Assembly (NCBI RefSeq): GCF_003344965.1
Contig: NZ_CP031194.1
Span: 6,200,001-6,264,000 of the forward strand
Source: Streptomyces paludis
GTDB lineage: Bacteria; Actinomycetota; Actinomycetes; Streptomycetales; Streptomycetaceae
Direction of reading: 5' to 3'
DNA: 64,000 nucleotides
Below, one piece after another: positions 5,028-31,065 of the stretch. The notes beneath the pieces are model-generated. The model was not told the DNA's origin and made no database searches. It saw nothing but the letters and a program-made list of their open reading frames with translations. Position numbers and translations under genes: made by a program. Numbering within the stretch: the first letter of the stretch is position 1; every line of letters begins with the position of its first letter.

Positions 5028-5040
5028 GAGGTGCCGCCTG

Positions 5041-9813: not shown

Positions 9814-9831
9814 GCCCGCGCTGCCCGGCCC

Positions 9832-13965: not shown

Positions 13966-14031
13966 CGGTACGTCCGTAGCGCGGCGAGCCCCACCCGTAC
14001 ACGCCTGTTCCGCAATCAAGGAGGCACATTG

Positions 14032-14763: not shown

Positions 14764-14819
14764 TTGACATGACGATCACACTGATTCGATACTTGTTTAA
14801 GTAAGCGGTAATCGAATCA
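14764..14819 (+). promoter_or_regulatory. ArsR-type operator/promoter for the ATP-grasp operon
   Basis: TTGACA (14764-14769) and GATACT (14788-14793) form a good -35/-10 pair with 18-bp spacing. The -10 lies in a dyad with perfect 9-base arms, TGATTCGAT (14782-14790) and ATCGAATCA (14811-14819). A second dyad TACTT-N4-AAGTA is nested within it. The same half-sites form the palindrome at 21617, so both operons are probably controlled by the same ArsR protein. Confidence 0.7.
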
Positions 14820-14838: not shown

Positions 14839-15045
14839 ATGAGCAGCGATCCGTCCGACGCAGCTGAGCAGGGACCCGTCGGAGGCTTCATCACGGAACC
14901 GCTCGTGGCCGCGGCGGCCACCACCGGTGGCTGCTGCGGCGAGCCCAGGAGCGCACCGGAACCCGCCCGCAGCAGCTGCTGCGGCGAACCCGCCGCCGAG
15001 GAAGCCCCCCGGAGCTGCTGCGGTGAGCCGGCGGCGGCGGGCTGA
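14839..15045 (+). CDS. Small Cys-Cys repeat protein 1
   Basis: 68 residues with no known family. A short N-terminal region (MSSDPSDAAEQGPVGGFITE) is followed by an Ala/Pro/Glu-rich tail with three CCGEP repeats (GGCCGEP, SSCCGEP, RSCCGEP) spaced about 15-17 residues apart. Only cysteine pairs occur, no single cysteines. This suggests a soluble thiol-metal binder, or a scaffold, for trivalent arsenic or copper (inference). GGAGG lies eight bases before the ATG. It is the first gene after the ArsR-type operator and sits 16 bp before the peptidase gene. Confidence 0.8.
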   Translation: MSSDPSDAAEQGPVGGFITEPLVAAAATTGGCCGEPRSAPEPARSSCCGEPAAEEAPRSCCGEPAAAG

Positions 15046-15061
15046 GGAAGGCACTCTCCCG

Positions 15062-16288
15062 ATGACCGAGACGGCATACGGCCAAGGGCCCGCCCCGGCA
15101 CCCGGGCCGGCGGACCCCTTCGACATCCGGCGCGCTCTCGCCACGCTGCGCGCTCTGTGCGTCCCGGAGATGGAGGGGCGCGCGCCGGGCAGCGCCGGCC
15201 ACGACCGTGCGACACGCTTTCTGGTCTCGGAGCTGACGGGGGCCGGTCTCTCACCCGTCCTGGAGCACTTCGCCATCCGCGGGGTCCTGCGGCTGACGGC
15301 ACCGCCGTACTGCGGGGTGGAGGGGCCGGAGCTTGCTAGGGATCTTGTCCACCGCGCCGAGTTCGCCGAGCACCCCCGCTCCGCCCCGATGCCGGCACCG
15401 GTCTCGGCGCCCGCTTCGGAGGACGCCCTACCCGGCTGTTGGGCCGTGGTGCGTGGCTCCTCCCAGGGCACCGCCTTCGCGGAACTGGCCGCATCGTTCG
15501 CGGCACGCGGTGTGGTGGGGATCCTCGTGGCCCAGCACGCCGACGCGTCCGGCTATCTGACCAAGCGGGTTCAGGGGCCAACGCCCGTACGGCTGCCGGT
15601 CGTCGCCTTCCTGCCGGAGCTGCTCGACGCAGTGACCGGCGGGACCGTCACCGCCCACGTCCCGCTGGAGCGGGTGCCCGCCGTTGGCGCCAACATCGTC
15701 GCCACGCTTCCCGGCCGTGCTCCAGACGCCCGCCCGATCCTTCTGACTGCGCACTACGACGGGGTCGGGTCCGATCCCGGACGGCACTTCCCGTGCGCCG
15801 GGGACAACGCCAGCGGCACCGCCGTGCTCTGCGAGACGGCCCGCGTCCTGAGCCGGGCCGAACCACTGGACCGCCCCGTCACCTTCGCCCTCTTGGACGG
15901 CGAGGAAATGGGCACCCTTGGGTCGGGGCATCACGCCCGGCAACTGCGTGAGCGGAAGCTGCGGCCGGACGTGCTCAACATCGACATGGCCGGCAAGTTC
16001 AATGGCAAGGTCGCCGTCGAACTCGGCCCGGCCGATCCCATGCCCGGGGATCTCATCGCGGCTCTCGACGCGTCCGGCCGCCGGCTGGGCATCCCCCTCT
16101 ACGCCGCACCCGTGGCATCCGACAACCGGCGCTACGCGGCCGCTGGCTTCCCCTCGGCCGGTGTCGGGCTGGGAGCGGCGCATTACCACTCACCCCTCGA
16201 CAGCCCGGAACGGATCGAGGCCGACGCCCTGCACAAGGCCGGACAGCTCACGCTCGCCACGGTCCGTCATCTCGCCGCCCCCGGCTGA
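15062..16288 (+). CDS. M28-family zinc aminopeptidase-like protein
   Basis: 408 residues, no signal peptide, so cytoplasmic, unlike most secreted M28 enzymes. A PA-domain-like insert (~residues 60-210) precedes the catalytic part. Metal/catalytic residues visible: His231 and Asp233 (HYDG), Asp248 (GDNASG), Glu281-Glu282 (DGEEMG), and His374/His376 (AHYHSPLD). Enzymes of this family remove N-terminal residues or hydrolyse small amides. In this operon, with ATP-grasp ligases and small Cys-rich proteins, it may trim or release a product from a peptide (inference). Start ATG at 15062 follows GAGGAAGG at 15044. Confidence 0.82.
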   Translation: MTETAYGQGPAPAPGPADPFDIRRALATLRALCVPEMEGRAPGSAGHDRATRFLVSELTGAGLSPVLEHFAIRGVLRLTAPPYCGVEGPELARDLVHRAEFAEHPRSAPMPAPVSAPASEDALPGCWAVVRGSSQGTAFAELAASFAARGVVGILVAQHADASGYLTKRVQGPTPVRLPVVAFLPELLDAVTGGTVTAHVPLERVPAVGANIVATLPGRAPDARPILLTAHYDGVGSDPGRHFPCAGDNASGTAVLCETARVLSRAEPLDRPVTFALLDGEEMGTLGSGHHARQLRERKLRPDVLNIDMAGKFNGKVAVELGPADPMPGDLIAALDASGRRLGIPLYAAPVASDNRRYAAAGFPSAGVGLGAAHYHSPLDSPERIEADALHKAGQLTLATVRHLAAPG

Positions 16289-16323
16289 ATCACCCTTCCA
16301 CCCCTTGGACCACAGGAGCCTCC

Positions 16324-16677
16324 ATGGCGAACACGCCCCAGCAGTCCGTGTCCACCCAGCTCATCCAGCTCGCCCCGAGCGTCGGTGAGCAGCACGCGGC
16401 CTTCTCCAAGAGCTACCAGGACTTCTTCGGCGCGGTCTTCGACCACGACGCCCTCGAACCGAAGACCCGGGCCGCCGTCGCTCTCTGCGCCGCCCTCATG
16501 CAGGACCGTGAGGAGACGGTCCGCTCCTTCCTCGCCGCCGCCAAGAAGCTCGGCCTCAAGAACGAAGAGATAGGCCAGATCGCCGGGATTGTCGAGGCGA
16601 TGAAGCTCGACGAACTCCAGCGCCCCGCCGTGCAGGCGGTCGCGGCGGCCGCTAAGAAGGCCAACACCTGCTGCTGA
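16324..16677 (+). CDS. AhpD/carboxymuconolactone-decarboxylase-like protein ending in CC
   Basis: 117 all-helical residues resembling the AhpD/CMD family (AFSKSYQDFFGAVFDHDALEPKTRAAVALCAALM...). The CxxC redox pair of true AhpD is reduced to a single Cys in VALCAAL, while the C-terminus gains Asn-Thr-Cys-Cys. This is the shortest of the four proteins in the operon with a CC tail. It could be a thiol carrier or a redox partner for arsenicals. A start ATG with AGGAG upstream is clear. It lies between the peptidase and the first ATP-grasp gene. Confidence 0.72.
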   Translation: MANTPQQSVSTQLIQLAPSVGEQHAAFSKSYQDFFGAVFDHDALEPKTRAAVALCAALMQDREETVRSFLAAAKKLGLKNEEIGQIAGIVEAMKLDELQRPAVQAVAAAAKKANTCC

Positions 16678-16728
16678 GCACCACCGCCCCGCCCATCCGC
16701 CCGTCCACCTCGACGAAGGACATCGGCA

Positions 16729-18006
16729 GTGCCTGAACCATCCACCCCCGCGACCGGCTCCGTCGTGATGCTCGGTGGCCGCAGCGAGCGCGAGTTCGGC
16801 GTCGTCAGGGAACTCGGACACCGGGTCGTCCTCCTGGACGAACGGATTCCGTGGCACTGCATGCCCTGGGTCGACGCCCACGTGGACATCGGCCTCGACG
16901 ACTGGGACGCGGTGGCGGACGCGATCCGCGAGGAACTCGGCGGCGAGCGGCCCGCCGCGGTGCTCACCCACACCGAACCGCGTCTGCCGCTGATGGCGTA
17001 CCTCGGCCGGTTGCTGACCCCGCACTCGGCCGGGCCCGACGAGGAGGCGGTGGCGAACTGCCGGGACAAGCTCCGTACGCGCACGGTGCTCGAAGCCGCC
17101 GGCCTGCCCGTACCGCGCTTCGCGCTTGCCACCACCGAGCACGAGGCCGTGGCGATGGCCTCCCGCATCGGCTACCCGGTCGTGGTCAAACCCCGTGACG
17201 GGGCCGGTGCGTTCGGCGTCCGGTGCTGCACCGGCGAGGCGGAGGTGCGGGAAGCCTTCGGCGCGCTGGGCGGGTTTGTCCCCGACGGGCTGCCGGGGGC
17301 GCTGATCGAGGAGTACGTCGACGGCCCCGAGTTCGCCGTCCAGACCCTCACCCGAGGCGGAACGACCGAGGTCCTCAGCGTCTTCCGGCAGCGGACGACC
17401 CCGCCGCCCGTCTTCGTGGAGCTGGGGTACGAGTATCCGTGCGGGCTGGACGCGGCCCGTCGCGAGGATCTCGACGGACTCCTGCGGAATACGCTCGACG
17501 CGCTCGGTCTGCGGGACTGGATCAGCCACACGCAGGTACGGCTCGGCGCCGAAGGGTTCCGCGTCATCGAGGTGAACGCCCGCAGACCCGGCGGACGCCT
17601 GGTGGAGATGACCACAGCCGTCAGCGGTGTCGACATGGTGGAGGCGGTCACCCGCCAGGTGCTGTGCCTGGAACAGCCACCGCCCGGCCCAACGGTACCC
17701 TTCGCCCGCTACACGAGCATCGTCTTCGACGAGCCGGGGACGCTCCTCTACGACGCTTTCGTTCCGGACGGCGAGGGGCCCGGCAGCCCCGTCGTCGAGC
17801 TGGAGGTCGCCCCGGGCGAGACCGTACGGTCCAAGGAGGACCCGCAGGGCGGGGTCTACGGCCGCATCGTCGTGTACGGGGAGAGCACCGACGAACTCGA
17901 CCGGGCCGAGCAGCAGGTCCGGCGGGCCCTGGACCTCCAGGTGGTGTTCGGCGACGGCCTCGAACCGGCCGCGACGGACAGCCGTGAGTTCAAGTCGTGC
18001 TGCTGA
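16729..18006 (+). CDS. ATP-grasp ligase 1 with C-terminal CC
   Basis: 425 residues of the carboxylate-amine ligase type. N-terminal Rossmann-like part (MLGGRSEREFGVVRELG), ATP-binding lysine in VVKPRDGAG (Lys154), IEEYVDGPEFAVQ, metal-binding Glu281-Val-Asn283 in EVNARRPGG, and a C-terminal domain found in many amino-acid ligases (VVELEVAPGETV). All catalytic elements look intact. Such enzymes join a carboxylate to an amine through an acyl phosphate. The chain ends Lys-Ser-Cys-Cys, a tail not normal for the family. GTG start. The nearest relatives are probably the two other ATP-grasp proteins in this operon. Confidence 0.85.
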   Translation: MPEPSTPATGSVVMLGGRSEREFGVVRELGHRVVLLDERIPWHCMPWVDAHVDIGLDDWDAVADAIREELGGERPAAVLTHTEPRLPLMAYLGRLLTPHSAGPDEEAVANCRDKLRTRTVLEAAGLPVPRFALATTEHEAVAMASRIGYPVVVKPRDGAGAFGVRCCTGEAEVREAFGALGGFVPDGLPGALIEEYVDGPEFAVQTLTRGGTTEVLSVFRQRTTPPPVFVELGYEYPCGLDAARREDLDGLLRNTLDALGLRDWISHTQVRLGAEGFRVIEVNARRPGGRLVEMTTAVSGVDMVEAVTRQVLCLEQPPPGPTVPFARYTSIVFDEPGTLLYDAFVPDGEGPGSPVVELEVAPGETVRSKEDPQGGVYGRIVVYGESTDELDRAEQQVRRALDLQVVFGDGLEPAATDSREFKSCC

Positions 18007-18016
18007 GGTGGCGCCG

Positions 18017-19144
18017 ATGACCCTCACCGACCCGGTTGGCCACCTGACCGCAGAGCACCGGATCGAGACCCTGTCCACGATCCACGACGTCGACGCCGAG
18101 GTGTGGAACCGGCTCGTCGGCCTGGCCTCCGGAAGTGTCTTCCACAGCTGGCAGTGGCTTGCTGCCTTCGAGGACGCCCCGCCCGGAGCGTTCGAACCCC
18201 GCCACCTTGCCGCCTACCGAGGCAACGAACTCGTCGGGATCTGCCCCGCCTACCTGGTGCACGACTGCCCCCGCCTCTCGTACCTCCTGGAGGTGGGCGA
18301 ATTCGCGCCCACCGGCCCCGTGCTGCTGGCGCACAGCCTCGCCGCACTGGACGGCGGCCCGCTGGCCGTGCCGGGCCACGACCGCGCCGTGGACGCTCTG
18401 CTCGGAGCGCTCGGGGAGGCCGCACGTTCGGCCGGAGCCCGCGTCTGGGGTGTGGCCAACGCCCCGGCGGACCGGCTCAGCGGACGGCTGATGCGGCAGG
18501 GATACGCCACGGCACACATCACCACCTCGTACCGTTGTGCCACCGATGTGCCGTCGGTCAAGGAGTACTGGGCGTTCGCCGAGGGGCACCGTCGTCGGAA
18601 GCTCGCCCGGGAGCGGCGCATCGCGGGGCGTGACCACACGGTGCTCGACGGGTCGGCCGACACGGACACCCTGGTCCGCCTAGTCCACTCCCTCCTCCAG
18701 GACCGGAACACCCCCACCGAGGTGCTGCCTGAGCCGTTCCTTCGGGCGATGCGGACCAGGCTGGCGCCCTTCGAACGCTCCATCACCGCCGCCGACCGCG
18801 CCGGGGAGACCATCGGTGCCTTCGCCGGCTGGCAGTTCGGCCCGGTCTGGTCAATGTGGCTGGCGGGCCTGGACACCGCGCGGCTGCCGTCCTTCGTCCC
18901 CTACCGTGCGATGGCCGGCCGCCTCGTCGAGAGCGCGGTCACTACGGACGTCGCCACCATCGACCTCGGCCGCTCCAACGGCATGGAGAAGCGCAAGCTC
19001 GGCGCCCACCCCGTCCCGCTCCACCTGGCGTTGAAAGTCCTCGACCGAGGGGAGCAGGCCGCGCTGCACGCGTCCTGCCTCCGGTTGGAACAGCGCTGCC
19101 AGGGCCCCGAGGAACAGCTCGACATGACCAGGCGGTGCTGCTGA
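18017..19144 (+). CDS. FemX/GNAT-like acyl(aminoacyl)transferase with C-terminal CC
   Basis: 375 residues with two GNAT-like halves of the BioF2/FemAB type (Acetyltransf_6 family): WNRLVGLASGSVFHSWQWLAAF at the start, and RRKLARERRIAG plus FAGWQFGPVWSMWLAGLD in the second half. Such proteins transfer acyl groups from CoA or aminoacyl groups from tRNA onto amines. Position between two ATP-grasp genes suggests a second route of amide formation. The C-terminus is Met-Thr-Arg-Arg-Cys-Cys, and other cysteines are scattered nearby. Start ATG at 18017 follows GAGGTGG, and the stop overlaps the next ATG by one base (TGATG). Confidence 0.8.
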   Translation: MTLTDPVGHLTAEHRIETLSTIHDVDAEVWNRLVGLASGSVFHSWQWLAAFEDAPPGAFEPRHLAAYRGNELVGICPAYLVHDCPRLSYLLEVGEFAPTGPVLLAHSLAALDGGPLAVPGHDRAVDALLGALGEAARSAGARVWGVANAPADRLSGRLMRQGYATAHITTSYRCATDVPSVKEYWAFAEGHRRRKLARERRIAGRDHTVLDGSADTDTLVRLVHSLLQDRNTPTEVLPEPFLRAMRTRLAPFERSITAADRAGETIGAFAGWQFGPVWSMWLAGLDTARLPSFVPYRAMAGRLVESAVTTDVATIDLGRSNGMEKRKLGAHPVPLHLALKVLDRGEQAALHASCLRLEQRCQGPEEQLDMTRRCC

Positions 19145-20313
19145 TGAACCCTGACACCCGGCCCAGCGTGGCCTGCCTCTCGGGACGCCGTGTCGTGGAC
19201 GTCCTGGGCTCCATTGGCGCCCACACGGTGCTGCTCGACGACCCCACGCCGCTGGAGCTGGCCGCCCGGGCCGACGTGCCCCTCGACCTCGACCTCGGGG
19301 ACTGGGGAGCGGTGGAGAGCGCCCTGCGTGCCCAGCATGCCGACCGGCCGCTCGAAGGGGTCTTCACCGTCTACGACGCGCATCTGCCGCTGGCCTCCTT
19401 CGCGGCCGCCCGGATCGGGGTACGCGGTCTCGGTCTCCCGGCGGCCCTGGCCTGCCACGACAAGGCGCGCCTGAGGATGATGCTGGCCGCCGACGGCTTA
19501 CGGACACCCGTGTCGCTGCCGGTCGCCGATCCGGCCGATGCCCGTGCCGCGGCCCGTCGGCTCGGCCTGCCCGTCGTGGTCCGGAGGACGGTCGGCCGGG
19601 GCCGGCTCCGCTGCCGCGATCTGGACGAGGTCAAGCGGGCATCGGAACGTCTTGGTCCTGCCGCGCTCCTGGTCGAGAGGTTCACCGGCGGGCCCGAGTA
19701 CGCCGTGCAGAGCCTCACCGTCGACGGGGTCACCGAGGTCGTGAGCGTGCTGGCTCAACACACCGGCCCGGGCCCGGCGCAGGTCGAGACCGGCTACGAC
19801 TATCCCAGCGGCCTCAACCCGGCCCGGGAGGCGGAGCTGAAGGAGTTCTGCGTACGGGCCCTGGCCGTACTCGGCTTCGATCACGGCGTCTCCCACAGCC
19901 AGGTGAGGCTGACGGACGACGGGCCCGAACTCGTCGACGTGGCCGCCCGGCCGCCCGGCGGGCAGCTCTGCGCCGCCGTCGAGCGGGTGAGCGGGATCGA
20001 TCTCACGCGCGCTGCCGCGGAGATCGCACTCGGGCGCCCGGTGACCCGCAGGCCGCCCACCGCGAGCCATGTGCTGTACCGGTGCGTCGACTTCGACGGA
20101 CCGGGCCGGATCGGCTACGACCCCCGGAGGCTAGCCGCCCCCGGCGTCTGGCTCGACGTCGAACCCGGCGACCACGTCCGCGCCGTCGACGACCTCGAAG
20201 GCGGTACCTACGGCCGCATCGTGGTGTATGGCGACAACCCGGCGGAGCTGGACTCCACGTACCACTCCCTCTACGAATCGCTCCGACTTCGCGTCGAGCC
20301 AGACACCCAGTAG
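19144..20313 (+). CDS. ATP-grasp-like protein 2, catalytic residues degenerate
   Basis: 389 residues, clearly related to the flanking ATP-grasp proteins over its whole length (PEYAVQSLTVDG, DVEPGDHV, GGTYGRIVVYG). Two catalytic elements have decayed. The ATP-binding lysine motif VVKPRD is VVRRTV (Arg147-Arg148). The metal-binding E-x-N is Asp265-Val-Ala267 (VDVAARPPGG), losing the Asn. It is also the only one of the three without a CC tail (ends PDTQ). It may be an inactive partner subunit that scaffolds the active ligases, or a binding protein for the product. ATG start immediately overlaps the transferase stop. Confidence 0.8.
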   Translation: MNPDTRPSVACLSGRRVVDVLGSIGAHTVLLDDPTPLELAARADVPLDLDLGDWGAVESALRAQHADRPLEGVFTVYDAHLPLASFAAARIGVRGLGLPAALACHDKARLRMMLAADGLRTPVSLPVADPADARAAARRLGLPVVVRRTVGRGRLRCRDLDEVKRASERLGPAALLVERFTGGPEYAVQSLTVDGVTEVVSVLAQHTGPGPAQVETGYDYPSGLNPAREAELKEFCVRALAVLGFDHGVSHSQVRLTDDGPELVDVAARPPGGQLCAAVERVSGIDLTRAAAEIALGRPVTRRPPTASHVLYRCVDFDGPGRIGYDPRRLAAPGVWLDVEPGDHVRAVDDLEGGTYGRIVVYGDNPAELDSTYHSLYESLRLRVEPDTQ

Positions 20314-20324
20314 GTGATGGACCC

Positions 20325-21572
20325 TTGTCCACGCGCATTCTCGTGCTCGGCGGACGGCGTACCGTCCAGCAGCTCCAGGAGGAGACCGACTACGACGTCG
20401 TCTTCGCCGAGGAGAACATGACGCTTGAACAGGTCATGCTCGCCGACTACCCCCTGGATGTCGACTTCGGCGACTGGGCCTCGGTCGTCGGCCAGGTGGC
20501 CGGGGTCCATGCCCAGCAGCCCATCCACGCCGTCGTCACCGGCGTCGAGCGGCTCGTCCCCCTGGCCGGCCGGCTGCGGAAGGAACTGGCGCTCGCCCAC
20601 GGCATCACCGAGCAGTCCGCCCGGGACTGCATCGACAAGGCGGCCACCCACCGGCTGCTCGAAGGCGCCGGGGTCCCGGTGCCGCGCACCCGGGTCGTGA
20701 GCGGCGCCCAGGAAGGCGGCGAGGCTGCCGAGGAGCTGGGCCTGCCCGTCGTGGTCAAGCCGCGCGACGCGTCGAGCGCCGCCGGGCTCGCGTACTGCGC
20801 CACTCGCGCCGAGGCCGAGGAGGCCGTTGCCGGCATCCTGGCGGGCGGCCGGGAGAGCGCCCTGCTGGAGGAGTACGTCCAGGGGCCGGAGTTCGGCGTC
20901 TTCGCCGCCCGTACCGCCGGGGTCACCCGGGTCCTCTGGGTCGTTGAGGGCGAGGTGGGGCCGCCGCCGACCTTCGTCAAGGTGGGTGGCCACTTCCCGG
21001 CCAGGCTCGGGAAGGAGGACCGGGAGGAGCTGGACCGACTGGTGGACCGGGCTCTGGCCGCCGTCGGCCTGGACGACTGGGTCGCGGCGCTGCAGTTCAC
21101 TCTCACCGCCGACGGCTGGCGGGCAGGCGAGATCAACCCCCGTGTCCCCGGGGGTCAGGCCGTCGAGATGATCAGGTCCACCACGGGCTGGGAACCCAGT
21201 CTCGTAGCCACCGAAGCCGCTCTCGGCCGGTACGGGGAGCCCAGGCCCGCCGATGCCATCTGCGGCCTGTACCGCAGCATCGTCTTCGAGGCCGCGGGAC
21301 GGATCGACTACGACGCCTCGGCCGTCGGCTCGTTCCAGGGGCTGGAATCCCCCCACCCGCCCTTCGTCGAGTTCGACGTCGCACCGGGCGAGTCCGTGCT
21401 GCCGGTCGCCCACCCGCGCGGCGGCGCCTTCGGTCGGATCGTGCTGGCCGGCGAGAGCCCCGAGCAACTGGCGAGGGACCTGGAGCGGGTCACGGCCCAG
21501 CTGGCTCTCCGGCTGCTGGACGAGCAGGTCGCCGAAGCCTCCGTCGACCGTGCACACACCAGCTGCTGCTGA
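20325..21572 (+). CDS. ATP-grasp ligase 3 with C-terminal CC
   Basis: 415 residues with intact ATP-grasp motifs: Lys145 in VVKPRDASS, LEEYVQGPEFGVF, and Glu269-Ile-Asn271 in GEINPRVPGGQ. The C-terminal domain contains VEFDVAPGESV. The chain ends His-Thr-Ser-Cys-Cys. The TTG start at 20325 is chosen because the sequence then begins with the Rossmann strand STRILVLGGRR, matching the paralogues. The upstream ribosome site is weak (GGTGATGG), so expression may depend on read-through from ATP-grasp 2, 11 bp upstream. Likely amide or peptide bond formation in the arsenical pathway (inference). Confidence 0.84.
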   Translation: MSTRILVLGGRRTVQQLQEETDYDVVFAEENMTLEQVMLADYPLDVDFGDWASVVGQVAGVHAQQPIHAVVTGVERLVPLAGRLRKELALAHGITEQSARDCIDKAATHRLLEGAGVPVPRTRVVSGAQEGGEAAEELGLPVVVKPRDASSAAGLAYCATRAEAEEAVAGILAGGRESALLEEYVQGPEFGVFAARTAGVTRVLWVVEGEVGPPPTFVKVGGHFPARLGKEDREELDRLVDRALAAVGLDDWVAALQFTLTADGWRAGEINPRVPGGQAVEMIRSTTGWEPSLVATEAALGRYGEPRPADAICGLYRSIVFEAAGRIDYDASAVGSFQGLESPHPPFVEFDVAPGESVLPVAHPRGGAFGRIVLAGESPEQLARDLERVTAQLALRLLDEQVAEASVDRAHTSCC

Positions 21573-21596
21573 CAACTCCCCACGTTTGCGCACTAC

Positions 21597-21646
21597 TTGA
21601 CGCTCCCCCGTCACCGTGATTCGATACTTTTGAAAGTATCGAATCA
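21597..21646 (+). promoter_or_regulatory. ArsR-type palindromic operator before the export operon
   Basis: A 30-base palindrome with perfect 14-base arms and a 2-base centre spans 21617-21646. Its outer half-sites TGATTCGAT and ATCGAATCA are identical to those at 14782-14819. TTGACG (21597-21602) and GATACT (21623-21628) are candidate -35/-10 boxes, but the 20-bp spacing is long. The operator lies 17 bp before the next small Cys-rich gene. Confidence 0.75.
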
Positions 21647-21663
21647 ATGGGAAGGGAGAAGCC

Positions 21664-21768
21664 ATGGCCGACGACATGATCGGTTCCGGCTGCTGCGAGA
21701 CCAGCGGCAACGAGGACGTCGCGGAAGACGGCACCGAGTGCGGCTGCGCCTGCGCCTGCTGCGACTAG
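21664..21768 (+). CDS. 34-residue Cys-rich peptide 2
   Basis: Very small ORF encoding 34 residues with seven cysteines: Cys10-Cys11, then Cys26, 28, 30, 32 and 33 in a CGCACACC block before a final Asp. The middle is acidic (NEDVAEDGTE). It has AAGGGAG before the ATG, a dedicated operator/promoter and a following hairpin, all arguing that it is a real gene. It resembles a metallothionein-like metal trap or a RiPP-type precursor with an acidic leader. It matches neither family strongly. It is the first gene of the exporter operon. Confidence 0.72.
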   Translation: MADDMIGSGCCETSGNEDVAEDGTECGCACACCD

Positions 21769-21783
21769 TCCAGCGGCATGACG

Positions 21784-21813
21784 GCGGGCCGCACCCTCCG
21801 GGGTGTGGCCCGC
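21784..21813 (+). terminator. Hairpin between Cys-rich peptide 2 and the exporter genes
   Basis: Arms 21784-21796 and 21801-21813 pair over 13 positions with one G-T wobble and a four-base loop. Placed directly after a tiny abundant-looking gene and before the ABC genes, it may act as a partial terminator or RNA stabiliser, making the peptide in excess over the exporter. Confidence 0.6.
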
Positions 21814-21857
21814 TCGGATCCCACCCACCCGACCAACCACCAAGAGGGGGCTCGACG

Positions 21858-23549: not shown

Positions 23550-25465
23550 CCGTCACCTCGCACGAGTCACCTCTGGAGGGCCGGGAAGCGCGGAAGGCAC
23601 TGGTGAAGGCGGCCCGCAGATTCCTGCCCTACCTGCGGCCCCACTGGTTCTGGCTCAGCGTCGCCACGCTGATGGCCATTCTGAATTCCATCGCCACCAT
23701 CGCCGTCATGTACACGGTGATGGCGGGCATCGGTCAGATCGTCATCGGCGACATGAGTGCCGTGCAGTCCACGGCGATCAACCTCGTCGTGCTGACCGTC
23801 GCCGAGAACATCATCCGCATCATCTACAACTCGGCGATGATCCGGACCAACGAGGACCTCTCCGTCACTATCCGCAACGACCTGGTCGTCCGCCTGCACA
23901 ACGTGCAGCTCTCGCGCCACGTCTCCCAGGCCAGCGGCGAGTGGGTCACCCGGGTGCTCTTCGAGGCGAACCGGTTCCGCGGATTTCTCACCAAGTCCCT
24001 GATGGAGGTGGCCAACAGCGTCATCTGGTTCCTCGCGTTCGCCATCTTTCTCCTCGCGCTCAGCCCCCTCGTGGCGCTGCCCACGCTGGTCACCATCCCG
24101 CTGATGGTCTGGATCGCGGTGGTGTGGACCAGAAAGCTGCGGCCGGACACCCGGAAACAGCGCGAGGGCTGGGACCGGATGGTCGGCTACCTCGACCAGC
24201 GCGTCGACGGGCTCGCGGACATCCGCGCCTTCGGCCAGGAGGACGCCGTACTCACCGATCTGCGTGCCCGCTCCGAGGAATACAGCACGGTCCACAACCG
24301 CCTCTCGCGCAAACGGCTCTGGCTCACCTCCCACCTGGGGTTCAGCGTCTTCCTTGCCCTCGGCCTGCTGATCTTCTTCGGCGGCCTTCAGATCATCAAC
24401 GGCCATCAGCTCGGCTCGGGCTTCTTCTTCGACATGGCAGCGGGGATGATGCCGATGACCTGGATGCTCATGGGCACCGACACGATGATGGCGTCCATGG
24501 GCATGGCGTCCGGAACGGCCCTGGCCGCCGGCACCCTCGCCGCCTTCGCCCTCTTCGTCAAACGCATGCTCAACCCGGTCAGGGACCTGGCCCACCTGCT
24601 CGGGCAGTCGTCCGACATCGCCACCTCGGCACGCCGCATCCTGGACGTGCTCGACCTGGAGGAGGAGCGGAGCGGTACGGGCACCCTGCCGCCCGTCGAA
24701 GGAGCCGTGGCCTTCGACGACGTCACCTTCGCGTACGACGGTGGCCCCGATGTCCTCCATGGCATCACGCTGAAGGCGGAGCCCGGACAGCACATCGGCA
24801 TCGTCGGAACCAGCGGCGCGGGTAAGAGCACCCTGATGCAGCTGCTGGTGCGGCTCTACACGCCGACCGGCGGGACGGTCACCATCGACGGGCACGACCT
24901 GACGGATATCAGCAGCGCCTCGGTCCGCTCCCAGGTTCTCCTCGTTACCCAGGAGGCACAGCTCTTCGACGGCACGGTCACCGAGAACATCCTCTTCGGC
25001 CGGCCCGATGCCACGGACGAGGAAGTCGTCGAAGCGGCGAAGAGCCTCGGCGCACATGAGGCCATCATGGGCCTGCGCAACGGGTACGGGACCAGGGTTG
25101 GCGAGCGCGGCTCCCGGCTCTCCGTCGGTGAACGCCAGCTGATCGCCCTGGCCCGGGCGATGCTCGCCGACCCCCGCGTCATAGTCCTAGACGAAGCCGT
25201 CTCCAGCGTCGACCCGGAACGGCAGCGACTCGTCCTCTCCGCCATCCGCCGCCTGCTGGATTGCCGTACGGCCGTCGTCGTCGCCCACTGGCTTCCGCTG
25301 GTGGAGGACCTGGACCAGGTCTTCGTGATCGAGGACGGACGGATCGTCGAATCGGGCCGCCCCGTCGAACTCTTCACCGCCGGCGGGCGGCTCACCGAAC
25401 TGTGCGACGCCCAGGAGGGCCGCACCCCCAGGAACACCCCAGGAAAGGACAACGCCCATGTCTGA
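23546..25465 (+). CDS. ABC exporter half-transporter B
   Basis: 639 residues: N-terminal TM domain of about six helices, then ATPase with Walker A GTSGAGKST near residue 421, Q-loop TQEAQLFDGTV, signature LSVGERQLIALARAM, and an intact Walker B/Glu pair in VLDEAVSS. It supplies the competent ATP site for the heterodimer with the preceding half-transporter. The end of the gene overlaps the third small CC protein by 8 bp, linking exporter and CC protein translation. Family members export peptides, lipids or drugs; an arsenic-containing product is the contextual inference. Confidence 0.87.
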   Translation: MTVTSHESPLEGREARKALVKAARRFLPYLRPHWFWLSVATLMAILNSIATIAVMYTVMAGIGQIVIGDMSAVQSTAINLVVLTVAENIIRIIYNSAMIRTNEDLSVTIRNDLVVRLHNVQLSRHVSQASGEWVTRVLFEANRFRGFLTKSLMEVANSVIWFLAFAIFLLALSPLVALPTLVTIPLMVWIAVVWTRKLRPDTRKQREGWDRMVGYLDQRVDGLADIRAFGQEDAVLTDLRARSEEYSTVHNRLSRKRLWLTSHLGFSVFLALGLLIFFGGLQIINGHQLGSGFFFDMAAGMMPMTWMLMGTDTMMASMGMASGTALAAGTLAAFALFVKRMLNPVRDLAHLLGQSSDIATSARRILDVLDLEEERSGTGTLPPVEGAVAFDDVTFAYDGGPDVLHGITLKAEPGQHIGIVGTSGAGKSTLMQLLVRLYTPTGGTVTIDGHDLTDISSASVRSQVLLVTQEAQLFDGTVTENILFGRPDATDEEVVEAAKSLGAHEAIMGLRNGYGTRVGERGSRLSVGERQLIALARAMLADPRVIVLDEAVSSVDPERQRLVLSAIRRLLDCRTAVVVAHWLPLVEDLDQVFVIEDGRIVESGRPVELFTAGGRLTELCDAQEGRTPRNTPGKDNAHV

Positions 25466-25694
25466 GACCAGCCTCGGCAACATGTTCTGGAACGCCGCCC
25501 AGCAGCCCCCGGCCGCCACCGCGGAGGAGCCGAAGAAGGCCTCCTCGTGCTGCGGGCCGAAGCCGGAGGCGAAGGCCCCGGCCGAGCAGGCCGCAGCGCC
25601 GGAGAAGGCCTCGTCCTGCTGCGGCCCCAAGCCCGCTGCCGCCGCGGAGCCCGAGGGCACCCCGGCGCCCAAGAAGTCGTCCTGCTGCGGCTGA
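25458..25694 (+). CDS. Small Cys-Cys repeat protein 3
   Basis: 78 residues. A short N-terminus (MSETSLGNMFWNAAQQPP) precedes a Lys/Ala/Pro-rich tail with SSCCGPKP twice and a final SSCCG one residue from the end. As in protein 1, cysteines occur only as pairs. The two proteins share no obvious homology outside the CCG units, but have the same design: flexible linker, three CCG units. It starts inside the end of the exporter gene (8-bp overlap). Possible roles are a trivalent-arsenic or Cu(I) buffer, a delivery protein for the exporter, or a scaffold. Confidence 0.8.
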   Translation: MSETSLGNMFWNAAQQPPAATAEEPKKASSCCGPKPEAKAPAEQAAAPEKASSCCGPKPAAAAEPEGTPAPKKSSCCG

Positions 25695-25726
25695 CCATCC
25701 CGCACCGAGCGTCCTGAGGAGGACAC

Positions 25727-26254
25727 ATGACCCGGCGCACGGCCCCCTTCCGGCTCGACGGAAGGGCCACGACGGCGGCGTGCCCGACCGGGCTCCGCAC
25801 CATCCGGAGGGCCGGGTGCCGGGCAGCCGCGGCCGTGTTCCTGGCCGCCGCCCTGACCGGCTGCACCGCCGCCGCGAACTCTGGTGCGAACGGCGGTTCC
25901 TCCCCGGCGAGCGACCTGGACGCGGACTGCCGCGCCACCAAGTCCGACACTGGTCTGGAGGTCACCCTCACCGTGAGCCCCTGCCCGCCCACGGGCGGGG
26001 GCGTGGCCGGCACGGCCGGGGTGGAGGTGAAGGACGCCGACGGCAAGGCCGTCTCCGGCGCCAAGGTCGAGATCAACCCCGAAATGCCCAACATGAAGAT
26101 GAAGGGCGGCAACCAGACGGCACGTCCCGAGGGCGACGGCTACGAGGCCAAGCTCGTCCTGGGCATGCCGGGCGACTGGCGGATCACCGTCACTGTCGTC
26201 CCCGCCTCCGGGGAGAAGTCCACCACCGCTTTCAACCTGACGGCGAAGGGCTGA
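25727..26254 (+). CDS. FixH/YtkA-like secreted protein, probable lipoprotein
   Basis: 175 residues. A basic N-terminus (arginine-rich, ~35 residues) and a hydrophobic stretch lead to LTGC, a probable lipobox. The mature part is a beta domain of the FixH/YtkA-like type: DADGKAVSGAKVEINPEMPNM, then MPGDWRITVTV. The Met-rich PNMKMKGG loop could bind Cu(I). Similar domains lie at the C-terminus of CopC-CopD fusions. It fits surface copper handling. The start may be internal because the leader is long. The gene is 32 bp after CC protein 3. Confidence 0.68.
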   Translation: MTRRTAPFRLDGRATTAACPTGLRTIRRAGCRAAAAVFLAAALTGCTAAANSGANGGSSPASDLDADCRATKSDTGLEVTLTVSPCPPTGGGVAGTAGVEVKDADGKAVSGAKVEINPEMPNMKMKGGNQTARPEGDGYEAKLVLGMPGDWRITVTVVPASGEKSTTAFNLTAKG

Positions 26255-26257
26255 CCC

Positions 26258-27454
26258 GTGCTCAGCAGCCGCGCCCGCTTGCTGCCCGCCTCCAGCACCG
26301 CTGCCCTGGACGCCGAGATCAAGGCCCGGATCTCCGCCGGTGCGGACATCATCAACCTCACAGGAGGCGAACTCGACTTCCCCACTCCCGACCAGGCGGC
26401 CGACGGGGCCCGGCGCGCCATCACCGAGGGCCGGACCCGCTACACCCCGGTCGCCGGCATCGGGCCGCTGAGAGAGGCCATCGCCCGGCGCCTCACCGAG
26501 CACTGGGACTGCCGCTACGACGCGACGCAGGTCGTGACCACGAATGGCGCCAAGCAGGCACTCGCCCAGGTGTTCACCGTCCTGTGCGAACCCGGCGACG
26601 AGGTGATCCTCCCGGCTCCGTACTGGGTCAGCTTCCCGCATATGATCCGCCTCGCGGGCGCGGTGCCGGTGACGGTGCCCACCTCGGCCACCGGCTTCAA
26701 GCTCACCCCCGAAGCGCTGCTGACCCACCTGACCCCGCGCTCCCGGGTCCTCCTGCTCAACAGCCCCTCCAACCCTACGGGCGTGGTGTACGAGCGCTCC
26801 GAACTCCTCGCCCTGGCGCGGGTGGCTGTGGAACACGGGCTGGCCATCGTGACCGACGAGATCTACGGCGACCTCGTCCATGACGGTGCGTCCTTCACCA
26901 GCGTCGCCTCACTGGGGCCCGACATCGCCGAACGGACCGTCACGGTCGGCGGCTTCTCGAAGACGTACGCCATGACGGGCTGGCGCATAGGCTTCGCGGC
27001 AGCTCCCTTGCCGGTCGCCGCTGCCCTCACCGCCGTACAGGGACACACAAGCTCGGCCCCCTCCTCGATCTCGCAGTACGCCGCGCTCGCCGCCCTGACC
27101 GACGGAACCGAGGCGGAACTGGAGCGCAGGGCAGCCAAGCTGAGCAGACGCCGCACGCTCATGCGGGACGGCATCCGCGCGCTGCCGCCGCTCCTGCTGA
27201 CAGCGCCACCGCAGGGCGGCTTCTTCGCCTTCGTGGACATTGGCGCGCTGTGCACACAGCCGGGCGAGGACGCCGGGACTTTCGCGCGCGACCTGCTGGA
27301 GCACGCCGGAGTCGCCGTCATGCCCGGCAACGGCTTCGCGGCCCCGGACCACGTGCGGCTGTCCTACGGCGTCGGCACCGAGGACATCATCCGCGCCCTC
27401 GACCGCATAGGCATCTACCTCAAGACCACAGGAACGGGAGCACACCGTGGATAA
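26258..27454 (+). CDS. Class I/II PLP aminotransferase
   Basis: 398 residues of the aspartate-aminotransferase fold I: YTPVAGIGPLREAI, TNGAKQAL, SPSNPTGVVY, TDEIYGDL, PLP-lysine Lys235 in GGFSKTYAMTGWRIG, and a C-terminal Arg in VRLSYG. These enzymes convert 2-oxo acids to amino acids. In an operon with the arsonopyruvate-forming pair, transamination of 3-arsonopyruvate (or a homologue) to an arseno-amino acid is a direct prediction. GTG start 3 bp after the lipoprotein stop, and the end overlaps the CopZ-like gene by 8 bp. Confidence 0.87.
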   Translation: MLSSRARLLPASSTAALDAEIKARISAGADIINLTGGELDFPTPDQAADGARRAITEGRTRYTPVAGIGPLREAIARRLTEHWDCRYDATQVVTTNGAKQALAQVFTVLCEPGDEVILPAPYWVSFPHMIRLAGAVPVTVPTSATGFKLTPEALLTHLTPRSRVLLLNSPSNPTGVVYERSELLALARVAVEHGLAIVTDEIYGDLVHDGASFTSVASLGPDIAERTVTVGGFSKTYAMTGWRIGFAAAPLPVAAALTAVQGHTSSAPSSISQYAALAALTDGTEAELERRAAKLSRRRTLMRDGIRALPPLLLTAPPQGGFFAFVDIGALCTQPGEDAGTFARDLLEHAGVAVMPGNGFAAPDHVRLSYGVGTEDIIRALDRIGIYLKTTGTGAHRG

Positions 27455-27668
27455 GGCCACTGTCTTCGAAGTACGCGGGATGACTTGCGGGGGATGCGCC
27501 AAGCGCATCCGTACGGCTATTGAGACGGACCTCGGGGAGGACACGGCCGTGGCCGTCGACCACAGGACCGGCCGGGTGACCGTCACCTCGCCGCGCGACA
27601 TCACCCCCGAGGCCGTCCGGTCGGCCGTCGAGCGCACCGGCTACGAGTTCGCGGGGACGGCGGTGTGA
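27447..27668 (+). CDS. CopZ-like heavy-metal chaperone (HMA domain)
   Basis: 73 residues forming one ferredoxin-like HMA domain with GMTCGGC for Cu(I) or another soft metal. It overlaps the aminotransferase end and is coupled to the following TM-peptide ORF (GTGA). It would pass metal to the P-type ATPase downstream. Confidence 0.88.
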   Translation: MDKATVFEVRGMTCGGCAKRIRTAIETDLGEDTAVAVDHRTGRVTVTSPRDITPEAVRSAVERTGYEFAGTAV

Positions 27669-27760
27669 CCCCCTCCCTCCGGCTCGCGCTGTACGCCGTG
27701 GTCCTTGTCGGATGTTTCGGCCTGGCCTGGCTGCTCGGCAGAGCCCTGCCACCCCTCTGA
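27665..27760 (+). CDS. 31-residue single-TM peptide
   Basis: A small ORF starts at a GTG overlapping the CopZ-like stop (GTGA). It encodes 31 residues with one hydrophobic helix (LALYAVVLVGCFGLAWLLG) containing a single Cys, and a short RALPPL tail. The coupling and the clean membrane pattern make it a credible gene. It could be an accessory subunit of the following P-type ATPase. No family recognised. Confidence 0.5.
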   Translation: MTPSLRLALYAVVLVGCFGLAWLLGRALPPL

Positions 27761-27793
27761 CCTGCCAGCCCCCACCGAATGGAGACTCCCCTC

Positions 27794-30133
27794 ATGGCCA
27801 GCACTGCCACGACGGCACCAGCCGTGGTCACGCTCGACATCGGCGGGATGACCTGCGGAGCGTGCTCCGCCCGGATCGAGCGCAAGCTGAACCGGCTCGA
27901 CGGCGTGACGGCCGAGGTCAACTTCGCCCTGGAACGGGCCCATGTGAGCTTCGACGACCGCCACACCGTCGACGGACTGATCGATACGGTCACGAAGATG
28001 GGGTACACCGCCACCCTGCCCCCATCGCCCGCGGCGGCCGTCCCGGCGCCGGACCCCGGTGGGACGGCCGGCGCCGCCGCCGACCGCGAACTGGCGGCCA
28101 TGCGGCTGCGCATCCTGGTCTGCGCCGCCCTCACTGTGCCGGTCATGATCATGGCCATGGTCATGCCCCTGCAGTTCGACCACTGGCAGTGGCTCTCGCT
28201 CACCCTCGCGGCACCCGTCGCCGTCTGGGGAGCCTGGCCGTTCCACACCGCCGCCTGGAAGAACCTGCGTCAGGCTTCCGGGACCATGGACTCGCTGGTC
28301 TCCATCGGCGTCCTCGCCTCCTTCGGATGGTCGCTGTACGCGCTGTTCTTCGGCTGGGCCGGTGTGACCGGCATGCGGATGCCGTTCCTCATGGTCCCGA
28401 CACCGGGACAGGGGTCGCACCACATCTATCTGGAGGTCTCCACCTCCCTGACCCTCTTTGTCCTGGTGGGCCGGTACGCGGAGCACCGGGCCAAGAGGCG
28501 CGCGGGAAGCGCCGTGCGGGCCCTGCTCGAACTCGGCGCCAAGGACGCCACGGTCCTGCGGGCCGGCCAGGAACTGGCCGTCCCCGTCGGGGAGCTGCGC
28601 GTCGGTGATCTCTTCGTGATCCGGCCGGGAGAGAAGATCGCCACCGACGGCGTGGTCGTCGAAGGCGCGTCCGCCGTGGATGTCTCCATGCTGACCGGCG
28701 AGAGCGTGCCGCAGGAGGTCTCCGAGGGCGACGCCGTCACCGGAGCCACCGTAAACACCAGCGGGCGCCTAGTGGTCCGCGCCGAGCGGGTAGGGGCCGA
28801 CACCCAGCTCGCCCACATCAGCCGGCTCGTCTCCGAGGCGCAGGCGGGCAAGGCCCCGGTCCAGCGGCTGGCCGACCGGATCGCCGCCGTGTTCGTCCCC
28901 GCCGTCATCGGCATCGCGGTGGCCGTCGCCGGATTCTGGATCGGCAACGGAGGAGGCGCGGCGGCCGCGCTCACCGCCTCGGTCGCCGTGCTGGTGGTGG
29001 CCTGCCCCTGCTCCCTCGGACTCGCCACCCCCACGGCCCTGCTCGTGGGCACTGGACGCGGCGCACAACTGGGCATCGTCATCCGGGGACCGCACATCCT
29101 CGAATCGACCCGGCGTATCGACACCGTCGTCCTGGACAAGACCGGTACCGTGACGACCGGCCGGATGCGGCTCGTCGCCATGGAGTACGGGGAGGGCACA
29201 GACCGCGACGAACTGCTGACCCTCGCGGCCGCGCTGGAGCACGCTTCCGAACACCCCATCGCGACGGCCGTGACCGCGGCGGCCGCCAAGGTGGCACCTG
29301 TGCTGCCCAAGGTTGACGCATTCCGTGCCAGCGCCGGATTCGGCGTTGAGGGCCGGGTGGGGGAGCGCGGGGTCGTGGTCGGCCGGCCCAGCTGGGTCGG
29401 CGGTCGGATGGAGTTGCCGGACGGTCTGCGGAAGGGCCTGGAGGGCCTGGAGAACAGCGGCCGGACCGCGGTCGCGGTCGGCTGGGACGGAGAGGTGCGC
29501 GGACTGCTGTTTGTCGCGGACGAGGCCAAGCCCACCAGCCGCCGAGCGATCGACGAGATGCGCTGGCTGGGACTGACGCCCGTACTGCTCACCGGCGACA
29601 CGGCCGGGGCGGCCCGGCGCATCGCCGACGACATGGGAATCACCGACGTCTACGCCGAGGTCCTTCCCCAGGACAAGGCCGCTGTCGTCCGCAGACTCCA
29701 GGAAGAGGGGCGCACCGTCGCAATGGTCGGAGACGGTATCAACGACGCCGCCGCCCTGGCCCAGGCCGATCTGGGCATCGCCATCGGCGGGGGGACCGAC
29801 GCGGCCATCGAGGCGAGCGACATCACCCTGGTCCGCGGCGACCTGCGCGACGCCGCTGACGCCGTACGCCTTTCCCGGCGGACCCTCGGGACGATCAAGG
29901 GCAACCTGTTCTGGGCGTTCATCTACAACCTCGCCGGTATTCCGCTCGCAGCGTCGGGCGTGCTCAACCCGATGATCGCGGCGGCGGCCATGGTGCTGTC
30001 CAGCATTTTCGTGGTGACCAACAGCCTGCGGCTGCGTCGCTTCACGTCCTCCTCGGCGGCGGACGGCGGCCGTGGTGCGGAGGGGCGGGCCGGCACGCCG
30101 GCCTCCCCCAAGGACCTGGCGAGCGTCTCGTGA
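27794..30133 (+). CDS. CopA-type P1B heavy-metal ATPase
   Basis: 779 residues. N-terminal HMA domain with GMTCGAC (Cys21, Cys24), eight TM helices, TGES actuator motif, Cys404-Pro-Cys406 transport motif in ACPCSLGLA, phosphorylation Asp448 in DKTGT, EHPIA, and [13 protein letters not shown] and HMA motifs indicate Cu(I)/Ag(I) export. The ATG at 27794 is chosen over the one at 27779 because GGAG lies nine bases before it. It is followed by an acyltransferase gene in GTGA overlap. Its place in an arsenic operon suggests shared thiol-metal chemistry or a copper-containing product. Confidence 0.9.
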
Positions 30134-31065
30134 TCGTCCGCTCCCTGGGGCTGCCGATGGCTCTCGTCGACGTGGACCAGGCACTGAGCGGACGCTGGCG
30201 GGTTCACGAACACGAGGTCGACATCGTAAGGGTGCAGGATCCGCCGTACGCGGCATGGCCACGGCTGAGGGAAGCGGGATTCCACCCCAAACCCCAGGTG
30301 ATCATGTGGCGGGCAGAGGTGCGGGACTCCGAGGACACCTACCTCGTCACCCTCTCGGGCAAGGACCGCTACGACATCCGTTCCGCCTACCGGCGGGCGG
30401 CCGAGGCGGACTTGCTGATCGGTACGGAGCCGCTGACATCCGCGCTGATGGAGGAGTTCATCGAGCTGTACGAGAAGCAGATCGCCGGGATGCGGCACGG
30501 CTGGCCGGTCGCGGTCCAGCAACAAGCCGACATCCTCGACCGGGCCGACTCCTTCCGCGCGATCACCGTCCGGAGCGGAACGGCCCTGGTGGGAGCCTGC
30601 CTAAACGAGGATCTTCCGGACCGCGGCGAGATGCGGGCGCGCTTCTCGGCGGTGACGCAGGGACAGCGGAACGGCAGCCTCTCCCGGGTGCTCTACTGGG
30701 AGACGATGCGTCAGGCCAGGGTGCGGGGTAGGCGCTGGGCGACGCTCGGCCGGGACGTCAACCTCTACGGCCACCTCGGCAACGCGGGCCTGTTCAGCTT
30801 CAAGTCGAGGCTCGGCTTCACGGCTGTGCCCGGTCAGTCGGTCGAGCCGGGAAGCGGATCCCACCAGGCCGACCGCGTGGTCGGCTTCACCGCCCTGTCC
30901 GATCCCGTGCTGCTGCTCTCCTACGCGGCGATGGAGGGGGAGGAGGCTGCCGTCACGGCTCCCCTGTCGGGACACCTGTTCAGTAGAGGCGAAGTGGACC
31001 TCCGCCCGTTTCGCGGTGCCGGACTGTCGGCCCTGACACTGCACCGGGTCCCCCCGCGCGTCTGA
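30130..31065 (+). CDS. GNAT-like acyltransferase
   Basis: 311 residues. The central part resembles Acetyltransf_6/FemAB-like proteins: [35 protein letters not shown], and [27 protein letters not shown]. It is the last gene of the exporter operon, joined to CopA by a GTGA overlap. It may N-acylate an arseno-amino acid for self-protection, as bar/pat does for phosphinothricin, or add an aminoacyl group. It lacks the CC tail of the other transferase. Substrate unknown. Confidence 0.68.

Follow-up and report, generated by a model that had tools for sequence, protein, structure and literature searches.

Terminal Cys-Cys pairs on several enzymes of a putative organoarsenical gene cluster in Streptomyces paludis

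A gene cluster in the 8.45-Mb single-contig genome of Streptomyces paludis (genome G000) encodes four enzymes that end exactly in two cysteines. The cluster occupies 11-32 kb of the 64-kb stretch analysed here (hereafter, the window; coordinates are window positions, on the + strand unless stated) and contains adjacent genes for an AroA (EPSP synthase)-like protein of the BsnM type, a proposed arsenoenolpyruvate synthase (11126-12451; TTG start uncertain, GTG at 11168 possible), and an iPGM-like mutase of the BsnN type, proposed to form arsonopyruvate (12448-13965), which places it among the AroA/iPGM-type, or bsn-like, clusters. A six-frame scan of the window for open reading frames (ORFs) of at least 25 aa returned four with Cys-Cys (CC) as the last two residues, the SaoC-like Cys-Cys-COOH arrangement, and all four are named enzymes: a small AhpD-like (CMD) protein (16324-16677; tail ANTCC), ATP-grasp 1, with an L-amino-acid-ligase fold (16729-18006; DSREFKSCC), a FemX-like, double-GNAT transferase (18017-19144; TRRCC) and ATP-grasp 3 (20325-21572; TTG start; HTSCC). 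We counted CC ends, defined as CC at or within three residues of the C-terminus, in genes called by a codon-bias rule that misses some tailed genes, so that the counts are lower bounds. Such ends occur in at least 15 of 76 genes of the Streptomyces cassette loci defined below (11-32 kb of the window included), at least 15 of 87 in the cassette loci of family f17, and at least 21 of 341 in other AroA/iPGM loci, two of the 21 being repeats from one contig covered by L034 and L148. The background, taken from twelve 20-kb segments of the same chromosome (240 kb in all), was 0/186 genes (Fisher P = 3e-9 versus the Streptomyces cassette loci), and the rest of the window gave 0/31. The observation of the tails is confirmed and stronger than first claimed: they are a real, selected, arsenic-linked feature. 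The original prediction had spoken of four unrelated enzymes; the four tails stand, and 'unrelated' does not, ATP-grasps 1 and 3 being paralogues (37% identity), which leaves three unrelated folds.

The same gene set, or cassette, was found at eight loci in two families (the window, L031, L032, G686, G788, G864, G893 and G833), all of which share the AroA-like/iPGM-like pair, a glutamine amidotransferase (GATase), the AhpD-like protein, ATP-grasps 1-3 and the FemX-like protein; the two ABC exporter genes are also present, truncated at the ends of L031 and L032. The four CC tails are kept in 8/8 loci, together with a small cysteine-rich protein, CC peptide 2, which has diverged in G833. Six loci reach far enough to include the downstream genes, L031 and L032 ending earlier. 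ATP-grasp 1 is rare. The window's copy shares 94% identity with a protein assigned by name to Streptomyces bacillaris; a search of 295 Streptomyces genomes found it in its own genome only (next best by score, 39% identical), as did one of 394 genomes of the class (E up to 1e-60), and it is present in 4 of 317 genomes of family f17. Homologues include proteins named Sphaerimonospora thailandensis, Herbidospora mongoliensis and Herbidospora cretacea, and those of Kutzneria, Lentzea and Umezawaea are known as proteins only. An iPGM-like gene of this type occurs in 22 of 392 Streptomyces genomes, and the cassette, in 2 (G000 and G686) of 20 iPGM-bearing ones (G000 plus 19; G050 and G130, of the 22, were covered by short search loci only), making it a subtype. 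No cassette was found in families f18 (0/35) and f37 (0/200), for which there was no positive control, and a search of plasmids returned only ATP-grasps of at most 35.6% identity.

Beyond these loci, the CC end is present in 70 of 73 ATP-grasp-1 homologues (53 KSCC, 13 KPCC), in 18/18 AhpD-like homologues and in 47 of 48 FemX-like homologues, the exception, P0120 (272 aa), being a partial protein whose second half matches ATP-grasp 3. None of the 18 AhpD-like proteins has the CxxC active-site pair of AhpD peroxidases before the tail, and 15 contain no cysteine besides the tail pair, which suits a carrier arm. In an alignment of ATP-grasp 1 (A1; the window protein and 39 of the 73 homologues, with the tailless P0067-P0069 and the partial P0066 left out), mean column identity is 0.38 in the linker (residues 406-416, 11 residues) versus 0.90 in the tail (417-425, nine residues), and in that of the FemX-like protein (A2; the window protein and 33 of the 48 homologues, P0120 left out) it is 0.45 in the stretch 361-372, with C374 and C375 among the 44 invariant columns of 375; both sets of tail figures describe tailed members only. 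The AlphaFold models of these two proteins have mean predicted local distance difference test (pLDDT) values of 89.0 and 89.7, but confidence drops at the C-terminal ends, modelled as coil (block means 62 and 50 in the first, 54 and 40 in the second), so both tails are predicted to be disordered. Poor conservation of the linker next to an invariant tip is what a mobile arm with a function would show, and strong selection on the tails is supported by the alignments. The mercuric reductase MerA likewise has a flexible C-terminal vicinal cysteine pair beside a soft-metal substrate, from which Hg(II) is delivered to the redox site of the same enzyme; in the present case the proteins are ligases and transferases and the pair stands at the very end, with a flexible arm predicted for two of the four.

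The tails were originally taken to be convergent, a view that would fit the unrelated folds and may fail for the paralogues. A midpoint-rooted tree of 49 ATP-grasps has one clade for ATP-grasp 1 and another for ATP-grasp 2; the clade of ATP-grasp 3 includes P0073, and all three group with P0067-P0073 (support 0.86), apart from the Streptomyces homologues. ATP-grasps 1 and 3 join with support of 0.93, so their tails may go back to a single ancestral one that P0067-P0069 have lost. The tail would thus have had three origins within the cassette (ATP-grasp, FemX-like and AhpD-like), and comparison with the loci described next would add further ones on ArsL, ArsM-like, ArsI/CadI, flavoprotein and other FemAB-like proteins. 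In other Streptomyces, no CC tail was present in any of 29 ATP-grasp homologues of 32-43% identity, read on both strands with ~1.5 kb covered on each side; matches were obtained in 135 other genomes, and these 29 had the highest scores. The result named at the outset as refuting the idea, the same tails on homologues far from any arsenic genes, was thus not found within this sample.

CC tails recur outside the cassette, on other proteins. The 24 other AroA/iPGM loci (L033-L038 and L136-L153, ~20 kb each, from 23 distinct contigs) include 21 with a CC-ended protein (20 of the 23 distinct contigs), as judged by reading and with an unassigned 186-aa ORF of L038 not counted. These proteins are of ArsI/CadI type in eight loci (that of L033, which was tested, matched NF041414 above cut-off), flavin adenine dinucleotide (FAD) oxidoreductases in four (with a weak ArsO match in L034 and L035, by appearance in L036, and in L148, the L034 contig), FemAB-like proteins ending in GGCCG or GSCCG in ten (L140 and L151 tested) and an ArsR-like regulator ending in ECC in one. 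FAD oxidoreductases ending in GGGCCG also stand near the two f17-family cassettes tested. The loci L136-L143, L037 and L151 represent a second type of AroA/iPGM cluster, in which the FemAB-like protein of ~490-530 aa has the C-terminal GGCCG/GSCCG, several of these proteins have a further CC near the N-terminus (TTCC, SSCC, QACC), and an aminotransferase match is present (cut off in L137).

Searching 224 Streptomyces genomes for the FemAB-like protein gave 12 matches, of which the 11 intact ones all possess a CC end as defined above; six of these are from the AroA/iPGM genomes. The twelfth (L197/L203, genome G134) was not scored, because it is a broken remnant (about 9806-10217, 81-84% identity over ~100 aa of the C-terminal part): in L203 the frame that gave the match lacks a CC end, GGGCCA terminates an ORF (9840-10217) that overlaps it in a different frame, and neither AroA-like nor iPGM-like proteins were matched in the surrounding 20 kb. 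The other five intact matches (genomes G143, G179, G065, G162 and G085; loci L198-L202) come from 20-kb regions that contain several ArsR-like genes and, again, gave no AroA-like or iPGM-like match. At L202 an ArsL (NF040542, above cut-off) ends in RCCVKC, a protein of the arsenite methyltransferase family (PRK11873, 243.3 versus a cut-off of 263) ends in GGSCC, and a further neighbour resembles arsenate reductases with a score below cut-off. Each of the ArsL-bearing loci (5/5) has three CC-tailed proteins, with the ends RCCVKC, CCG/CCS/CCSTG and GG(T/S)CC, with the families named by hidden Markov model in L202 only and by the same ends in the other four. All five combine ArsL, an ArsM-like protein and the FemAB-like enzyme with an ATP-grasp (partly cut off in L200 and L201), a set that would suit arsinothricin peptide derivatives.

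The expectation that the tail would occur only with the AroA/iPGM pair was therefore not borne out, five ArsL-bearing loci having CC tails on ArsL, ArsM-like and FemAB-like proteins without it. The tails go with two different proposed C-As chemistries and thus follow organoarsenical pathways more widely. They were not found far from arsenic genes: every intact CC-tailed relative whose neighbourhood was read sits among them, in a sample in which most loci were found via arsenic-linked queries; the exceptions, obtained by searches that did not ask for arsenic genes, are the four cassette loci of family f17 and the 11 intact FemAB-like matches. Recurrence in other arsenic-product clusters hints that toxic arsenic compounds are gripped by a common means during assembly.

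The make-up of the cluster points to a peptide. The AroA-like/iPGM-like pair is common to the bisenarsan (bsn) cluster of Streptomyces lividans/coelicolor, where BsnM and BsnN are proposed to convert As(V) to arsonopyruvate without S-adenosylmethionine (SAM) enzymes, with gene disruptions as backing (PMC12159101). The present cluster differs from bsn in having an aminotransferase, three ATP-grasps, two FemX-like enzymes, the AhpD-like protein, an M28-family peptidase (15062-16288; 5.6e-30) and CC peptides, and it is not a bisenarsan cluster proper, no polyketide synthase or phosphonopyruvate-decarboxylase-like gene being among those annotated at 11-32 kb, the region to which that statement applies, the rest of the genome not having been searched for them. 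The ATP-grasps fall with L-amino acid ligases, 3vot ranking first for ATP-grasp 1 both by sequence profile and by fold. The FemX-like protein has the double-GNAT FemX fold, with FemX (1xf8, 1ne9) and the aminoacyl-tRNA-dependent peptide synthase Sbb17 (9wqx) as nearest structures, and is a candidate tRNA-dependent peptide synthase. Phosphonoalamides are made with an aspartate-aminotransferase-like enzyme and two ATP-grasp ligases (PMC11867202), pnaABCD likewise placing an aminotransferase and ATP-grasp amino-acid ligases after a pyruvate-type head group, a resemblance that holds at the level of protein families; that pathway differs in making a phosphonate via PepM, without arsenic, and CC tails go unmentioned in the part of the paper available. 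PepM was not among the matches of the annotated genes, no search aimed at it having been made. FemX-like tRNA-dependent enzymes act in the dehydrophos pathway (PMC12945691). By analogy with these systems the product is probably an arsono-amino-acid peptide, and the parallel to both pathways makes an arsonoalanine-headed peptide the best guess. The AroA-like/iPGM-like pair would form the C-As bond and yield arsonopyruvate, which would be transaminated to arsonoalanine, the candidate transaminase being a pyridoxal phosphate (PLP)-dependent, aspartate-aminotransferase-like protein (26258-27454; below curated cut-offs). Peptide bonds would then be made by the ATP-grasp ligases and FemX-like transferases before export by the ABC exporter (halves at 21858-23549 and 23546-25465).

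Vicinal dithiols bind trivalent arsenic, and As(V) arsonates are not bound by them unless first reduced. We favour, tentatively and at not quite an even chance, the reading that the region is a variant organoarsenical biosynthetic cluster with an AroA-like/iPGM-like pair of the bisenarsan type, in which mobile dithiols hold trivalent arsenicals. The dithiols of the tails and CC proteins would bind arsenite or a reduced organoarsenical, be it intermediate or product, reversibly, keep it off other thiols, and present it or pass it between carrier-like proteins and enzymes. Binding of trivalent arsenic by tails and peptides is likely; a hand-over, or relay, between tails and CC proteins, as originally proposed, is plausible and the more conjectural of the two.

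Several points weigh against this reading. The published AroA/iPGM intermediates are arsonates, hence pentavalent (PMC12159101), and no dedicated reductase was identified among the genes annotated at 11-32 kb. ATP-grasp 2 (19144-20313) is without a CC tail in 8/8 loci, as is a second FemX/GNAT-like transferase (30130-31065) in all 6/6 where it is seen, and P0067-P0069, which are 46-49% identical to ATP-grasp 1 and branch beside its clade, also have none. At G788 no aminotransferase was matched in 40 kb. Finally, genes for a CopZ-like HMA metallochaperone (27447-27668) and a CopA-like heavy-metal P-type ATPase (27779-30133) are kept in 5/6 loci, and one for a YtkA-like protein (25727-26254) in 6/6, which lends some weight to a role for copper. 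In favour of the reading, trivalent intermediates are reported for the pathway to arsinothricin (arsQML), also an organoarsenical (PMC8552651); it differs in that the C-As bond is formed by a radical SAM enzyme.

The three tiny proteins built around CC units that had been reported are present. CC peptide 1 (14839-15045; 68 aa) has three CCGEP units and CC peptide 3 (25458-25694; 78 aa) three SSCCG units, both being low-complexity repeats; CC peptide 2 (21664-21768; 34 aa; MADDMIGSGCCETSGNEDVAEDGTECGCACACCD) has two CC pairs and a CxCxCC run. None of the three has a Pfam match, and none was assigned to a metallothionein family. Counterparts of CC peptide 1 occur in L031, L032, G686, G788 and G833, and a peptide of similar make-up lies elsewhere in G893 (48% match) and, by appearance, in G864; CC peptide 3 is found in the window, G686, G788, G864 and G893, with no match in 40 kb at G833. 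The Herbidospora loci have an additional CC peptide of 49-56 aa directly 5' of the AhpD-like gene. CC peptide 2 is kept outside its cysteines too (seven aligned copies), and silent codon changes exceed replacements in 20 of 21 pairs, often only slightly, the 21st pair being identical. The 13-base half-site TGATTCGATACTT occurs three times exactly in the window and nowhere else in it at up to two mismatches (expected 0.08): once 5' of CC peptide 1, in an operator-like site TGATTCGATACTT...ATCGAATCA (14782-14819; strand not assigned), and twice 5' of CC peptide 2, as the 30-bp near-perfect palindrome TGATTCGATACTTTTGAAAGTATCGAATCA (21617-21646; strand not assigned). Similar sites precede CC peptides 1 and 2 in L031, L032, G686 and G788, and CC peptide 2 in G864 and G893; none is present in the 100 bases 5' of either peptide in G833. 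Two ArsR-family regulators with an N-terminal CCPP, as described originally, both exist, ArsR1 (9448-9813; HTH_5, 1.4e-13) before and ArsR2 (31145-31522, - strand) just after the range then under discussion, and we infer that ArsR would bind the sites 5' of CC peptides 1 and 2.

These features bear on the best-placed rival, a protective sink without hand-over, in which arsenite and trivalent by-products in the vicinity of the enzymes would be trapped by the tails and CC peptides. Thiol chemistry alone would suffice for it, and the low-complexity arrays of CC peptides 1 and 3 without Pfam match, the operator-like sites just 5' of CC peptides 1 and 2 and the tailing of ArsI/CadI-family proteins, which are named for metal resistance, all speak in its favour. 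A sink leaves unexplained, however, the enzyme-specific conserved residues before the CC (REFKS/P, RR/SR, ANT and HTS) and the exactly C-terminal position of the pair in all four enzymes at all eight loci, and we consider it rather unlikely. Somewhat less probable still is an outright dithiol carrier system. Here an As(S-Cys)2 linkage would fasten the reduced arsenic head group to the CC peptides and to the tail of the AhpD-like protein, which has no CxxC, while the amino-acid part is lengthened by the CC-tailed ATP-grasp and FemX-like enzymes, a metalloid-thiolate taking the role of the acyl-carrier-protein thioester, and the device would have arisen separately in the AroA/iPGM and ArsL (arsinothricin-type) pathways.

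An arsenic-dependent switch or assembly tag, with As(III) or another ion clamping pairs of tails so as to activate or assemble the enzymes, would agree with flexible tails that have conserved tips, with the several tailed partners in one cluster and with the N-terminal CC pair of the cluster's ArsR proteins; the sequences before the CC differ between tails, and we judge this reading improbable. CC motifs also bind Cu(I) well. The copper genes listed above, as well as CopC and CopD upstream, would be at home in a system whose tails and peptides serve Cu(I) instead of arsenic. Yet neither CopZ nor CopA was matched in 40 kb at G833, which keeps all four tails, or in the ~20 kb at each of the 24 other AroA/iPGM loci, 21 of them with CC-tailed proteins; copper is less likely on this account, and we regard the Cu(I) reading as very improbable.

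Little credence, in our view, is due to the idea that the peptides are ribosomal scaffolds or precursors extended or modified by the ATP-grasp and FemX-like enzymes, in the manner of peptide aminoacyl-tRNA ligase (PEARL), carrier or RiPP-like systems. The short, conserved CC peptide 2 does adjoin the ABC exporter, and peptide-bond-forming enzymes and the M28 peptidase are at hand, but no LanB-like (peptide aminoacyl-tRNA ligase) match was found among the genes annotated at 11-32 kb, the nearest relatives of the ligases act on free amino acids, the CC motif is on the enzymes themselves, and the peptides have no common C-terminus. Cysteine-responsive attenuators exist in mycobacteria, and CC peptide 2 is a Cys-rich short ORF 5' of transporter genes, but that it is merely such a leader ORF, with tails unrelated to arsenic (localisation, stability), is scarcely credible given its conservation beyond the cysteines, the silent changes mostly in excess of replacements and the association of the tails with arsenic clusters.

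Dithiol tails have been noted family by family. The SaoC Cys-Cys-COOH selenoprotein and the SAO system are named in a review (PMC13188914); by its name SaoC has Cys-Cys (Cys-Sec) at the C-terminus and belongs to a presumed organometallic pathway, with different proteins, and arsenic-peptide chemistry is unmentioned in the part of the review available. The SaoC model NF040734 gave no match for the AhpD-like and FemX-like proteins and was not among the best 25 matches for ATP-grasps 1 and 3. The NCBIfam names ArsL 'rSAM_RCCLKC' and 'CUAEP/CCAEP-tail' for radical SAM families record a Cys-Cys tail, one family each, so curators had noticed single-family tails; no statement of a tail common to unrelated enzymes was seen among the model names, and in the open-licence library searched no paper was found, by title or abstract, on CC tails common to the enzymes of one arsenic cluster. 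Two further identities were considered for the tails. That the AhpD-like tail is the Sec pair of ArsM_AhpD_UU was dropped, the motifs of that family being UxxG and CxxU (PMC13188914). Prenylation of the -CC ends, as in Rab proteins, was set aside as belonging to a eukaryotic, not a bacterial, system. Natural products that contain organic arsenic are few so far, and little is clear about the way in which producers cope with the toxic element during synthesis. A conserved dithiol tail that ligases, aminoacyl transferases, methyltransferases, radical SAM enzymes and ArsI/CadI proteins have acquired, it appears, on several occasions would amount to a general rule of arsenic biochemistry, and genomes could be mined for new arsenic compounds by searching for it.

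The GATase of the cluster is a CTP-synthase-C-terminal-like family protein (14029-14748; NF004836 above cut-off). Upstream of the cluster, at 411-2899, an ABC permease (BPD_transp_1) and what reads as an ABC ATPase look like a phosphate transporter and could serve arsenate uptake. A CopC-CopD fusion and a DUF1775 (YcnI-like) protein (3312-5769, - strand) belong to the copper genes around the cluster. The molybdopterin oxidoreductase at 6757-9270, whose best NCBIfam matches are formate dehydrogenase and nitrate reductase models, none of those listed above cut-off, is a possible arsenic redox enzyme. On the downstream side, a MobA/VirD2-like relaxase (34979-36721, - strand) indicates that an integrated mobile element may begin just beyond the cluster. 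A tRNA-Arg called by ARAGORN at 16903-16983, on the - strand opposite the ATP-grasp 1 gene, is probably a false positive.

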